From Microbacterium terregens (lineage in GTDB: Bacteria; Actinomycetota; Actinomycetes; Actinomycetales; Microbacteriaceae), in the NCBI RefSeq assembly GCF_039534975.1, contig NZ_BAAAWH010000001.1:1364001-1428000 (forward strand): a stretch of DNA of 64,000 bases. Reading direction: 5' to 3'. Below are positions 21,369 through 55,369 of this stretch, one piece after another. How positions within the stretch are numbered: position 1 is the first letter of the stretch; every line of letters begins with the position of its first letter. The notes under the pieces were generated by a model. The model ran no database searches and was not told the origin of the DNA. It saw nothing but the letters and a program-made list of their open reading frames with translations. Position numbers and translations under genes: made by a program.

Positions 21369-21442
21369 GGTTCGAGGTTAACCCGCGTGCCCGACACGCT
21401 CCCGGATGCCGCCGGCTCGGTGCCGGGCCGCCGAGGTGCTCG

Positions 21443-21730
21443 CCTGTCGCAACACGCCGCCGGGGCGCGCGCTTTGCGACAGGGGAACCGTGGACCGGCT
21501 CGTACCTCGGTGCTCGCCTGTCGCAATGCGCCGGCGGGGCTGCAGATTGCGACAGGGGAGTGGCGCCCCGGAAGTCGAGGTGGCATTCGCGGCGTGAGGC
21601 TTGGCTCGGCGTTCGCCTGTCACAACACGCCGCCGGGGCGCTCGCTTTGCGACAGGTGAACCGCGGACCGGCTCGTAACGTGACGCTCGCCTGTCGCAAC
21701 ACGCAGGCAGAGCGTGCGCTTTGCGACGGG
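21443..21730. repeat. Family A palindromes, array of four
   Basis: Four inverted repeats with arms CCTGTCGCAA and TTGCGACAGG (small variants) lie at 21443-21483, 21517-21556, 21616-21656 and 21690-21730. The loops of about 20 bases are G+C-rich and share a GCC-GGGGC core. Unit starts are spaced 74, 99 and 74 bases. They fill the 378-base gap between the M4 protease start and the DUF559 stop codon, which otherwise holds no gene. Confidence 0.9.
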
Positions 21731-21746
21731 GGAGCGGCCGACGGGC

Positions 21747-22706
21747 TCAGGAGCGGGCGGCGATTGCAGAGCGCACGCGCGAGACGAAGACGCCCGGCTC
21801 TGCGAAGAGCTCGGTCTTGGTGACGCGGATCACGCGCCACCCCGCTGCGATGAGTTCCTCATATCGGCGGATGTCGCGTGCCCACTGTTCGGGATCGAGC
21901 AAGTGATGCTCACCCTCGTACTCCATCGCGATCTTCAGGCTCGGATAGGCGAGATCAACGCAGGCCAGCAACCGCCCGTCTTCGAAGACGTCGAAGTTCA
22001 GCTTCGGTTCGGGCAGCAAGGCGCCGATCAGGGTCAGACGCGCCCAGGTCTCCGGTCGGGATGCCGCGCGAGTACGCACCTGCGGGAGGGCGCCCCGCAG
22101 CTGACCGACGCCGACGCGCCGTCCCGACTGCGCCGCGGCCTCGAGATCTGCAGTGGTGGCGAGCGGGTGGGCGACCCGCCAGACGCGCACCGCGGCATCC
22201 CCCACTGCAATCAGGTCGTAGGGATCGTGGAGCACCGCGCCCAGCATCGCCCAGGTGGATGCCGGGCTCGTGAGCAGCAGGCCGGAGCGAGGGTCGCGGT
22301 GGACGGTCGTGAGGCGCGCGGAGGTCTGGTGACCGCGGACACCCTTGCCGCGCGGCAGCCGCGCGGGTCCGAACACCCCGACATCGATTCCGGGGCGCGC
22401 CACGATGCCGGCCGGAAGAGGGAGGCCCCAGATCACCGCGGCGGTGATGTGGCTGAAGAAGTGCCCCTCCGCAATCCCCACCGCGTATTCGCGTGCGCGA
22501 CGCAGATGATCGCGTTCGAGGTCGCCGAGCGGGCGGCCCAAGCGGTCAAGCTCGACACCGGCCTCGGAGTCGACGAGCGCGCGGATGCCGTGGAACGGCC
22601 TCGCGAGATCTGCTCGGCGCAGACGGCTGGGCGGGACGCCGGCGCGAAGCGCGTCCGCGACACGGAAGCAGAGGCCGAGGTGGTCGGGGAGCATCGGGCG
22701 CAGCAT
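21747..22706 (-). CDS. DUF559/AbiEi-like protein with Vsr-like nuclease fold, first intact copy
   Basis: The protein (319 residues from 22706) has an N-terminal winged-helix/AbiEi-antitoxin-like region ([20 protein letters not shown], then [18 protein letters not shown]), the linker [23 protein letters not shown], and a C-terminal DUF559 domain. That domain keeps VDLAYP, EYEGEHH and [11 protein letters not shown], in the places where PD-(D/E)XK/Vsr-type nucleases hold their acidic residues. Start candidates are 22775, 22706 and 22694; alignment with the second copy (54285-55241) favours the last two. It stands between arrays of family A palindromes on both sides. The role is unknown; the annotated name AbiEi antitoxin rests on the N-terminal fold only, and no AbiEii toxin gene is adjacent. 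Confidence 0.7.
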
Positions 22707-22829
22707 CCACCCATGATCGAGTCGCGCGTCCGAGACGCGCGTCGCCGGTCCCGCACCGGTGGAGTCGAGTCGCATCCGCGCACCTGGGGAGGAACGCTGG
22801 CGGGAGTGAGCCCGAGGCAAGACGCTTCG

Positions 22830-22966
22830 TCCGTCGCAAAACGCCGGCGGGGGCGCAGTGTGCGACAGGGGAGCCCCGGGGGAGCCCCGGGGGTGCCAAC
22901 TCGACCCGGGCGACCGCGCCTCTCGCCTGTCGCAACATGCCGGCCGGGGGCGCAGCTTGCGACAGG
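22830..22966. repeat. Family A palindromes, two copies upstream of the DUF559 gene
   Basis: A degenerate copy (22830-22869) and a perfect copy with CCTGTCGCAA/TTGCGACAGG arms (22926-22966) lie upstream of the gene. Together with the array at 21443-21730 they bracket the gene. Confidence 0.85.
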
Positions 22967-22978
22967 GGAACCCCAGCG

Positions 22979-40096: not shown

Positions 40097-40121
40097 GGGA
40101 CGCGGATCCTCTCCCGGATCC

Positions 40122-40162
40122 CCGGACGACGGATCAGTACCCGGTGAGCGACAAGACTGGCC
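40122..40162 (+). promoter_or_regulatory. Guanidine-III riboswitch (mini-ykkC class III)
   Basis: The leader contains CCGGACGA, then ACCCGGT and GACAAGAC in the order and spacing of the guanidine-III aptamer, known for example from Thermobifida fusca. The two CCGG tracts (40122-40125 and 40141-40144) can form the pseudoknot helix, and CAGT/ACTG (about 40135-40138 and 40155-40158) gives the second helix. The 3' strand ends a few bases before the Shine-Dalgarno GGAGG of the exporter gene, consistent with translational control. This is recalled from the published aptamer and not computed. Confidence 0.8.
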
Positions 40163-40177
40163 ATGGAGGCGAGTCCT

Positions 40178-40800: not shown

Positions 40801-40873
40801 TGCCCCCGACAGGAATCGAACCTGCGACCTTTGGTACCGGAAACCAACGCTCTATCCCCTGAGCTACGGAGGC
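40801..40873 (-). tRNA. tRNA-Arg (anticodon CCG)
   Basis: The minus strand folds as a complete 73-base tRNA: acceptor stem GCCTCCG paired with CGGGGGC and discriminator A, D arm with AGCTCAGGGGATAGAGC, anticodon stem TTGGT/ACCAA around the loop TTCCGGT (anticodon CCG), and T arm GCAGGTTCGAATCCTGT. CCA is not encoded. It would read CGG arginine codons. Confidence 0.95.
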
Positions 40874-42783: not shown

Positions 42784-42805
42784 CCCTGCCTCTTCGCCTG
42801 TTCCG

Positions 42806-43069
42806 CTGTCGCAACCTGCCGGGGTGCGCAGCAGTTTGCGACAGGGGAGCCGAGAGAGGGCGCGACCTGGGGCTGTTCCGCTGTCGCAACCTGCCGGGGT
42901 GCGCAGCAGTTTGCGACAGGGGAGCCGAGAGAGGGCCGCGACCTGGGGCTGTTCCGCTGTCGCAACGTGCCGGGGTGCGCGGCAGTTTGCGACAGGGGAG
43001 CGGAGGGGGGCGCGGCGCGGGGCTGTTCCGCTGTCGCAACGTGCCGGGGTGCGCGGCAGTTTGCGACAG
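42806..43069. repeat. Family A palindromes, tandem array of four
   Basis: Arms CTGTCGCAA and TTGCGACAG occur at 42806-42844, 42881-42919, 42957-42995 and 43031-43069, spaced 75, 76 and 74 bases. The whole 75-base unit, including flanks GGGGCTGTTCCG and GGGGAGC, is repeated. They fill the 346-base gap between the transglutaminase and argS; no gene is seen there. Confidence 0.92.
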
Positions 43070-43114
43070 GGGAGCGGAGAGGGGAGCGCGCCCGGACCTC
43101 CCGGCGCGGAAACG

Positions 43115-54158: not shown

Positions 54159-54219
54159 GTTCACTTGCCCTGTTTGTACGCGCGCGCCCGCGTTTCGTGT
54201 ACATACAGGACAAGTGAAC
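54159..54219. repeat. Family B palindrome, upstream copy
   Basis: Arms at 54159-54179 and 54199-54219 (GTTCACTTGCCCTGTTTGTAC against GTACATACAGGACAAGTGAAC) pair except at two positions, one a possible G-U. The 19-base loop is GC-rich. It lies 65 bases before the DUF559 gene start. Confidence 0.9.
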
Positions 54220-54284: not shown

Positions 54285-55241
54285 ATGACGGCAGAACCAC
54301 TCCCCGCATTCCGTGTCGCCGACGCCCATCGCGCCGGAATGTCCCGCCGCGAAATCGACTCCCCGCACCTCGACCGGCCCTTCGCCGGGTTGCGGGCCGA
54401 ACCGCTCGAGCTGGGCTCAGCTGAGCCCGATGAGGCCCTCTCAGACCCGAGAAGAGACGCGACGATCCTCGCCGCGCGGCAGTTCGCCGCTCACATGCAC
54501 GCGGGGGAGTTCTTCTCGCACGTCACAGCTGCCGTTCTGTGGGACCTCCCGCTGCCTCCGCTCGACCTCGACCGCATCGACGTTTCGGTATGCGCCCCGA
54601 CTCGCGCCCCGCGCGGTCGCGGCGTTCGTGGCCACCAGCTCGCCGGCGCGCAGGTCACCGTTGTGACGGGTCCCTTCGGCTTGCGCACGACCAGCCCCGC
54701 GTCGACGTGGGCCCAGCTGGGGCGTGCGGTGCGGCATCCATATGATCTGACGGCGATCGCGGATGCCGTCATCCTCGCGCCGCGCATCGCCGGCCCCTTC
54801 GGCCGGGTGCTGCGGGCGCCGCTGGCTGATGTCTCCGACCTCGACGTGGAGCTGCGCCGCGGCCGTCGCATCGGAATCGCCGCCCTCGACGAGGCGCTGC
54901 TGCGCGCGCGCCACGGCTCGGTGTCCCGCCCCGAGACGTGGTGCCGGCTCACGATCGTCGATGCGGGCCTGCCCGAACCCCTCCTCGATCACGATGTGTA
55001 CGACGAGGCAGGGGAGTTCGTCGGCTGCGTCGACCTCGCGTATCCCGAGCTGCGGATCGCCATCGAGTACGAAGGCGATCACCATCGGCTCGATCCGCGC
55101 CAGTGGTATCGCGACATCGCGAAGCACGACCGCCTGGCCGAACTCGGCTGGCGGGTGATCCGCGTCACGAAGTCGATGGTGTTCGCCGACCCCGGTGTTC
55201 TCATCCAACGGGTGCACGCCGCGCTCCGCGCCCGCGGTTAG
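54285..55241 (+). CDS. DUF559/AbiEi-like protein with Vsr-like nuclease fold, second intact copy
   Basis: The 318-residue protein is a paralogue of the one at 21747-22706. It shares [66 protein letters not shown], and the C-terminal VDLAYPELRIAIEYEGDHH and [14 protein letters not shown]. The acidic residues of the nuclease-like domain are kept. A purine-rich GAGGGTGCCGGG precedes the ATG. It lies between two copies of the family B palindrome. The function is unknown; no toxin or methylase is adjacent. Confidence 0.75.
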   Translation: MTAEPLPAFRVADAHRAGMSRREIDSPHLDRPFAGLRAEPLELGSAEPDEALSDPRRDATILAARQFAAHMHAGEFFSHVTAAVLWDLPLPPLDLDRIDVSVCAPTRAPRGRGVRGHQLAGAQVTVVTGPFGLRTTSPASTWAQLGRAVRHPYDLTAIADAVILAPRIAGPFGRVLRAPLADVSDLDVELRRGRRIGIAALDEALLRARHGSVSRPETWCRLTIVDAGLPEPLLDHDVYDEAGEFVGCVDLAYPELRIAIEYEGDHHRLDPRQWYRDIAKHDRLAELGWRVIRVTKSMVFADPGVLIQRVHAALRARG

Positions 55242-55257
55242 CCTCGCCCCGCGCGTT

Positions 55258-55318
55258 GTTCACTTGCCCTGTTTGCACGGTGTTCGGCCGCCTCGGCGTG
55301 CATTCAGGGCAAGTGAAC
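55258..55318. repeat. Family B palindrome, downstream copy
   Basis: Arms at 55258-55278 (GTTCACTTGCCCTGTTTGCAC) and 55298-55318 (GTGCATTCAGGGCAAGTGAAC) differ by two bases. It lies 16 bases after the DUF559 stop codon. Confidence 0.92.
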
Positions 55319-55369
55319 CGGGGCGGCGGACCCGCCGCGAGCCGGAGGGAGGCGCGAGGACTGCCGCGC

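Follow-up and report, generated by a model that had tools for sequence, protein, structure and literature searches.

AbiEi-like/Vsr-type predicted nuclease genes bracketed by private palindrome classes in Microbacterium and related Actinomycetota: a possible REPIN/RAYT-like pairing on a different enzyme fold

A predicted nuclease gene and its palindromes

We analyzed a window of 64,000 nucleotides of Microbacterium terregens (contig NZ_BAAAWH010000001.1, positions 1,364,001 to 1,428,000), which contains a gene for a predicted AbiEi-like/Vsr-type nuclease (DUF559, MTES_1575; 319 aa; 21747..22706, minus strand), designated paralog A. The gene is bracketed by six palindromes of one class (class A), four on the 3' side and two on the 5' side, as a sequence-only reading of the window had proposed and as direct reading and a repeat search confirmed. 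From the farthest to the nearest, the downstream palindromes lie at 21440..21486, 21514..21560, 21613..21659 (left arm CCTGTCACAA) and 21687..21733 (one right-arm change), and the upstream palindromes at 22827..22873 (degenerate arms) and 22923..22969. An exact CCTGTCGCAA...TTGCGACAGG match was present in only three of the six, the other three having at least one change; the number of exact matches expected by chance was 0 (100 shuffles).

Four full-length paralogs, the window gene included, were found in this genome, and each of them has a palindrome class of its own (A, B, C or D) on both flanks. The other three are 38-55% identical to paralog A. Class B (CGCTCCGCAGTC) occurs in several copies per side of paralog B, whereas paralog C has a single GTTCACTTGCCCTG palindrome on each side; class D has the form GTGTCCCA...TGGGACAC, and its upstream copy is imperfect. 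Paralog C is also located in the window (54285..55241, plus strand; 318 aa, 51% identical to paralog A), with its palindromes at 54159..54219 and 55257..55319, confirming the earlier statement that a second gene of this kind is accompanied by a different palindrome. In the regions looked at, class B did not turn up beyond the surroundings of its own gene. Class C is dispersed too: its words were also found at a distance from paralog C, both in the paralog B locus and in one of four random 20-kb samples (L050 position 14805; L166), and one stray class C word lay ~5 kb from paralog B.

Domain organization of the protein

The C-terminus of the protein scored 30.4 bits with Pfam MTES_1575 and 19.8 with DUF559, below the respective curated cut-offs of 38.2 and 20.6, and the N-terminal two thirds are AbiEi-like. 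In the model, the protein joins an AbiEi-like DNA-binding half to a nuclease of the Vsr/EDxHD type, the nearest nuclease fold being that of the homing endonuclease I-Bth0305I; with Foldseek alone, nothing matched at E <= 0.001. Multiple alignment of 18 relatives showed invariant columns that include E219, R223, E262, G265, H268 and D278, and D251 was nearly invariant. No PADLOC or NCBIfam family spans the entire protein. The relationship of the DUF559 fold to Vsr nucleases, which the sequence-only reading had put forward, is supported by the predicted Vsr-type fold, yet the AbiEi-like N-terminal part indicates that the protein is not merely a nuclease. The gene is under purifying selection, with ratios of nonsynonymous to synonymous substitution rates (dN/dS) of 0.10-0.20 in five pairs.

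Bracketing is a property of the gene family

Relatives of the gene were detected at E <= 1e-10 in 57 of 59 genomes of the genus (1-9 rows each). We collected 134 genes (60 loci of ~20 kb, four of them shorter at contig ends; 30 loci with 1.5-kb flanks; paralog C; and 43 more), leaving out 12 weak or fragment rows; one of the 134 proteins (L152) spans two frames and three have an in-frame stop. After five loci with a flank under 200 bases were dropped, 129 genus loci remained. In the 60 long loci, the density of hairpins with a score of at least 12 was 3.05 per kb in the 200 bases next to the gene vs 0.144 per kb at a distance of 2-9 kb. Such hairpins were present upstream of 77 and downstream of 80 of the 129 genes (on both flanks of 60, on neither of 32), and in 8.1% of upstream and 10.0% of downstream flanks of control open reading frames (ORFs), defined as the other ORFs of more than 600 bases in the same loci.

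A 9-mer common to the hairpins of both flanks was found for 65 of the 129 genes and for none of the 419 control ORFs in the same test. With slightly different flank ends the count was 62 of 129, and a stricter hairpin score gave sharing in 40 of 90 genes vs 0 of 419 controls. When the upstream flank was paired with the downstream flank of another locus, words were shared in 406 of 16512 pairs, and pairing with a flank of another paralog in the same genome gave sharing in only 3 of 256, so that the gene-specific pairing claimed from the window alone extends to the family. One of the two observations that the sequence-only reading had named as speaking against it was palindromes equally common beside other genes; no control ORF was bracketed, whereas single dispersed copies do adjoin other genes. 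Five genes (L069, L070, L071, L093 and L119) were located near contig ends, four within ~400 bases and L071 at ~4 kb, as if palindrome arrays broke assemblies near these genes.

Across the order, a relative at E <= 1e-20 was present in 111 of 149 genomes and 51 of 64 sampled genera, and 19 of 29 loci examined were bracketed (five of the 29 were from the same genus). Among named genomes, 16 of 40 loci were bracketed, including those of Arthrobacter, Agromyces, Agrococcus and Pseudonocardia kunmingensis. In the phylum, relatives were identified in 36 of 198 genomes. Outside the order, four genomes of one genus (g66 of family f22; G545, G580, G601 and G654) contained 6-11 relatives each and three of four loci were bracketed, which suggests a rich second group.

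Palindrome classes follow protein clades

Covariation of palindrome class with protein clade had been set as a check on the sequence-only reading, and it did not refute that reading. For 41 loci with matched palindromes, palindrome similarity and protein identity were correlated with a Pearson coefficient of 0.28, which none of 5000 permutations reached (largest, 0.22), and a Spearman coefficient of only 0.11; this Mantel test included one wrongly framed row (L037). The palindrome class was shared by 73% of pairs at 60% or higher protein identity (11 pairs), by 20% at 50-60% identity (75 pairs) and by 0-2% below 50%. In a tree of the 134 proteins, the GAGTGTCCA class falls in a single clade, which comprises 11 genomes, and the TGTCCCAC class falls mostly in another.

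Dispersed copies depend on the cognate gene

Class A reaches beyond its gene, with 17 exact copies at 8 places across the 3.57 Mb (7 contigs) of the genome; the reversed-pattern control gave 0. One of these places, in the gap between a transglutaminase-like gene and argS (42802..43073), is an array of four copies with a period of 74-76 bp. Similar arrays of fixed period, with up to five copies, were observed elsewhere (63 in G057, 74-75 in G008). The GAGTGTCCA class (class E) reached 37 copies per genome and class D 42, with lengths of 54-56 and 50-52 bases, respectively, among the copies listed. Of the 11 genomes with an E-clade gene, 10 had at least six class E copies, compared with none of the 48 without it (p 1.8e-10); for class D, three or more copies were present in 14 of 20 carriers of a D-clade gene vs 3 of 39 other genomes (p 1.3e-6). 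These counts take in the copies beside the gene. In both classes, copy numbers follow the presence of the cognate gene.

Of 31 solo copies, 21 (10 of 13 places) were outside long coding-like ORFs, as judged by mechanical ORF calls in GC-rich DNA. The Y1 transposase domain (PF01797) was absent from 58 of the 59 genus genomes, including this one, G041 being the sole carrier of Y1_Tnp; a RAYT as a hidden mover was rejected for this genome because it has no Y1 transposase.

Presence and absence of palindromes at orthologous sites

For the argS site, 365 genomes gave a match, and we compared the 29 best relatives among them; three lacked the right flank, leaving 26. M. terregens has four copies at this site, and the sister genome G281, whose flanks are 88-90% identical, has one imperfect copy. 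G281 was the only one of the 26 relatives with a class A word there; 22 of the other 25 had no score-10 hairpin, and their shortest gaps were ~20 bases. A weak inverted repeat in G116 (L197) did not reach score 10. The G281 copy reads CCTGTCACGA... rather than CCTGTCGCAA, and resembles the palindromes around the syntenic ortholog of paralog A in G281 (69% identical). The gap upstream of argS looks insertion-prone: three loci (L175, L187, L190) have inserts of more than 1 kb in it, and L183 has a different repeat family (GGGGCGTTTCGTCTCGCTTCGCTCGCTCAACGACCG).

A second site (L158) has two copies in M. terregens, one copy and a remnant in G281, and one copy in G347; none was present in the printed gaps of G324, G246 and G357. 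When the palindrome stretch of this site (588-770) was used as a query, 36 further rows matched in G281, some of which share a place and two of which lie beside its own gene; seven other genomes gave no further rows, except for the site itself in G347.

Palindrome anatomy

The palindromes are built of bipartite half-sites. The class E half-site consists of GAGTGTCCA, two free bases and ACACGCGG (or ACACGCCG), mirrored around ~18 free bases, and that of class D in G057 of TGTCCCACTT, three free bases, GCGG, two free bases and AT, also mirrored. In class A, CTGTCGCAA is followed by NNY (29/30), G (30/30) and C (27/30), again mirrored (15 of the 17 copies, of one length). The outer box was fixed by the search pattern, whereas the inner box was not.

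The sequence-only reading had suggested that the enzyme could cut or bind the palindromes as hairpins. This was not supported. In classes E and D, the arms of a copy were no more complementary to each other than arms swapped among copies: the observed complementarity was reached in 1343, 1926, 1696 and 2000 of 2000 permutations (class E, 22, 14 and 8 copies in three genomes; class D, 30 copies in one genome). Because the arms lack covariation, they are better described as facing copies of one recognition word than as a stem kept by compensation, and selection of the stem as a hairpin was rejected as the main constraint for the same reason. Recognition of a double-stranded dyad probably fits these patterns better than recognition of a hairpin. 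No GTAG or CTAC was present within 10 bases of either foot in any of 43 copies (17 of class A, 17 of class D and 9 of class E).

Proposed mechanism

We lean slightly towards a REPIN/RAYT-like pair of enzyme and palindrome built on a different enzyme fold, in which the enzyme would cut its own dyad and repair would copy the palindrome. Each gene would encode a resident DNA-binding nuclease, mostly inherited vertically, whose AbiEi-type half would read the site and whose Vsr/EDxHD-type half would act as the nuclease. The enzyme would recognize its private palindrome as two inverted half-sites, each with a 9-10 bp box, a 2-3 bp gap and a short GC-rich box, around a free center. A cut or nick at or near the dyad, followed by repair, would copy the palindrome beside existing ones, giving tandem arrays, and occasionally to new places; the gene would keep sites around itself and would itself rarely be moved. 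Binding, cutting and movement by the enzyme, as well as cutting as the driver of copying, are what we infer. The original proposal of a REPIN/RAYT-like system on another fold thus stood with respect to bracketing, class-clade covariation, a predicted Vsr-type fold, copies that follow the gene and the lack of a Y1 transposase in this genome, and was not supported with respect to hairpin recognition.

Several observations weigh against this proposal. The both-flank test was failed by 64 of the 129 genus genes, and 32 had no strong hairpin on either flank. Distant relatives in Actinomycetota mostly lacked bracketing; only 5 of 26 loci in the phylum had it, suggesting that bracketing is a trait of a subfamily. 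The dependence of copies on the gene has exceptions in both directions. Four genomes (G010, G016, G023, G031) had 1-3 class E copies and no E-clade gene, five (G011, G012, G024, G027, G049) had 1-6 class D copies and no D-clade gene, and four (G030, G033, G034, G052) had a D-clade gene and zero class D copies; the eleventh genome with an E-clade gene, G050, had no exact class E copies, its arms (GAGAGTCC) being invisible to the search pattern. In G347 (L178), the argS site carried a hairpin of another class that matches none of the three genes of that genome. Ten of the 31 solo copies (3 places) were inside long coding-like ORFs by the same mechanical calls. At the two sites compared, the relatives were too diverged to fix borders, and neither a target-site duplication nor an exact insertion border could be established.

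The centers of the palindromes belong here too. Those of 22 copies in G048 were mostly unrelated (mean identity 0.43 vs 0.39 after shuffling), so most dispersed copies in this genome are not recent duplicates. Two pairs of distant copies were exceptions that favor the proposal, as they shared much of the center (0.82 and 0.71; the maximum was reached in 1 of 300 shuffles). Apart from these pairs, the unrelated centers in G048 led us to reject a recent burst of copies. Conserved half-sites with free centers are also typical of lasting regulator-binding sites.

Alternative explanations

This last point leads to the main rival, a fairly unlikely one in our judgment: the protein could be a site-specific regulator or a genome-organizing protein, the palindromes being operators selected at tens of places and used for autoregulation, with a nuclease half that is rarely used or acts on foreign DNA. 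This reading is opposed by tandem arrays of up to five copies and by strong hairpins that are equally frequent downstream and upstream of the gene (80 and 77 of 129), as well as by four of the solo places, at which the closest ORF calls on either side run toward the site. In addition, whole sites of 40-56 bp occur where relatives have none, which would be hard to make by point mutation, and the nuclease residues are conserved.

Another possibility, which we consider improbable, is that the gene and its flanking palindromes form a transposon-like or homing element and that solo palindromes are the remnants of excised or degraded elements. The palindrome-gene-palindrome layout would be in agreement with such an element, as would the closeness of the predicted nuclease fold to that of I-Bth0305I. 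However, the paralogs are not identical copies but are diverged to the extent described above, and their palindrome classes differ. In 7 genomes, paralog C keeps a distance of 11.4-13.3 kb from argS; a gene near argS in G199 was excluded from this count because its identities to C (43.9%) and A (43.2%) do not clearly make it paralog C. Moreover, tblastn searches (E <= 1e-4) found no gene remnant at the 13 solo places. Transposition of the gene itself is not supported by these three observations. The enzyme is inherited vertically as distinct single copies, vertical inheritance having been checked for paralog C only.

We find it similarly hard to credit a defense or toxin-antitoxin module, in which an AbiEi-type repressor would be fused to a nuclease effector and the palindromes would be regulatory or self-protecting. 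The AbiEi and mREase_II models of PADLOC match the protein, which favors this idea. Such a module alone does not explain the dispersed copies, however, and no AbiEii-type partner was seen beside the window gene. The genes next to it encode an M4 peptidase and the ATPase of a peptide ABC transporter; this ATPase grazes the AAA_21 model, which also covers AbiEii, with a score below the cut-off of the model.

Finally, ordinary intergenic hairpins (terminators) that adjoin the gene by chance or through GC-rich composition, a reading with a negligible chance of being right, are common between genes in GC-rich genomes, as in the 8-10% of control flanks noted above, but this explanation is refuted by the controls, as the both-flank word was shared in 0 of 419 control ORFs, reversed patterns over 59 genomes gave only 2 matches for class D (one in G034, one in G057) and 0 for class E, and the palindromes had no Rfam match. 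The only Rfam matches in the window, neither of them at the palindromes, were a guanidine-III riboswitch (RF01763, 54 bits, 40100-40165, plus strand) and a tRNA gene close to it (40801-40873, minus strand).

Significance and comparison with known systems

REP (repetitive extragenic palindrome)-like palindromes are common repeats of bacterial genomes. The genes described here form an unrelated and very common family, and position, class and copy number all link them to palindromes of their own; this provides a testable function for a branch of DUF559/MTES_1575 proteins. As a large natural collection of proteins matched to DNA sites, they could also be used to deduce recognition rules, and they may explain many species-specific intergenic repeats. 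If the proposed mechanism is true, the REPIN/RAYT way of life would have an independent origin outside the HUH enzymes, and orphan REP-like repeats in actinobacteria would gain an enzyme.

The enzymes tied to such palindromes in the available parts of PMC3116915, PMC3733652 and PMC8266576 are HUH tyrosine transposases. As far as these texts describe REPIN/RAYT systems, a chromosomal single-copy enzyme gene is flanked by its own palindrome class, with dispersed copies, tandem clusters, class-specific pairing and vertical inheritance; together with the accessible text of PMC3710099, they also cover layout, private pairing, gene-dependent copy number, and gain and loss of copies. The genes and palindromes described here are alike in flanking, dispersal, clustering, pairing and inheritance. 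They differ in that the enzyme is predicted to combine AbiEi with a Vsr-type PD-(D/E)XK fold instead of HUH/Y1, that the GTAG foot is missing in the 43 copies and that the palindrome consists of two bipartite half-sites with a free center and a stem without covariation. The system is therefore not a member of the REPIN/RAYT group: its enzyme has no relation to those transposases, its palindromes lack the GTAG foot, and what is recognized is probably a double-stranded dyad.

The predicted AbiEi fold is shared with the AbiE type IV toxin-antitoxin system (AbiEi antitoxin) and Rv2827c, from which our protein differs by the fused C-terminal nuclease, by the lack of an AbiEii partner beside the window gene and by sites that lie on both sides of the gene and are dispersed. 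Similarly, the EDxHD homing endonuclease I-Bth0305I, Vsr and the DUF559 protein NGO0050 have a Vsr-like catalytic fold with conserved acidic and His residues, which the model predicts here as well, whereas the gene in this case is linked to a dispersed palindrome family. No intron or interrupted host gene was seen at the nuclease genes in the window, empty gene alleles not having been searched for. A literature search, which most subscription papers and bioRxiv preprints were outside the reach of, found no description joining DUF559 or AbiEi to such palindromes.

Since each known kind that the system resembles fails a defining feature, or is not shown to have it, the system appears categorically new. 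We think it possible, at somewhat less than an even chance, that it represents a new palindrome-propagating class, in which AbiEi-Vsr fusion nucleases would cut their own dyads, break repair would propagate these, and many private pairs would evolve in parallel across the order, several of them per genome. Two further comparisons come from the available part of PMC3733652, which describes TIRtrons, i.e., Y1 transposases flanked by terminal inverted repeats (TIRs) with the gene between long inverted repeats, and orphan REP-like families without a known enzyme. TIRtrons are similar in that the enzyme gene lies between long inverted repeats and differ in the enzyme. In contrast to the orphan families, the orphan-looking palindromes described here gain a candidate enzyme.
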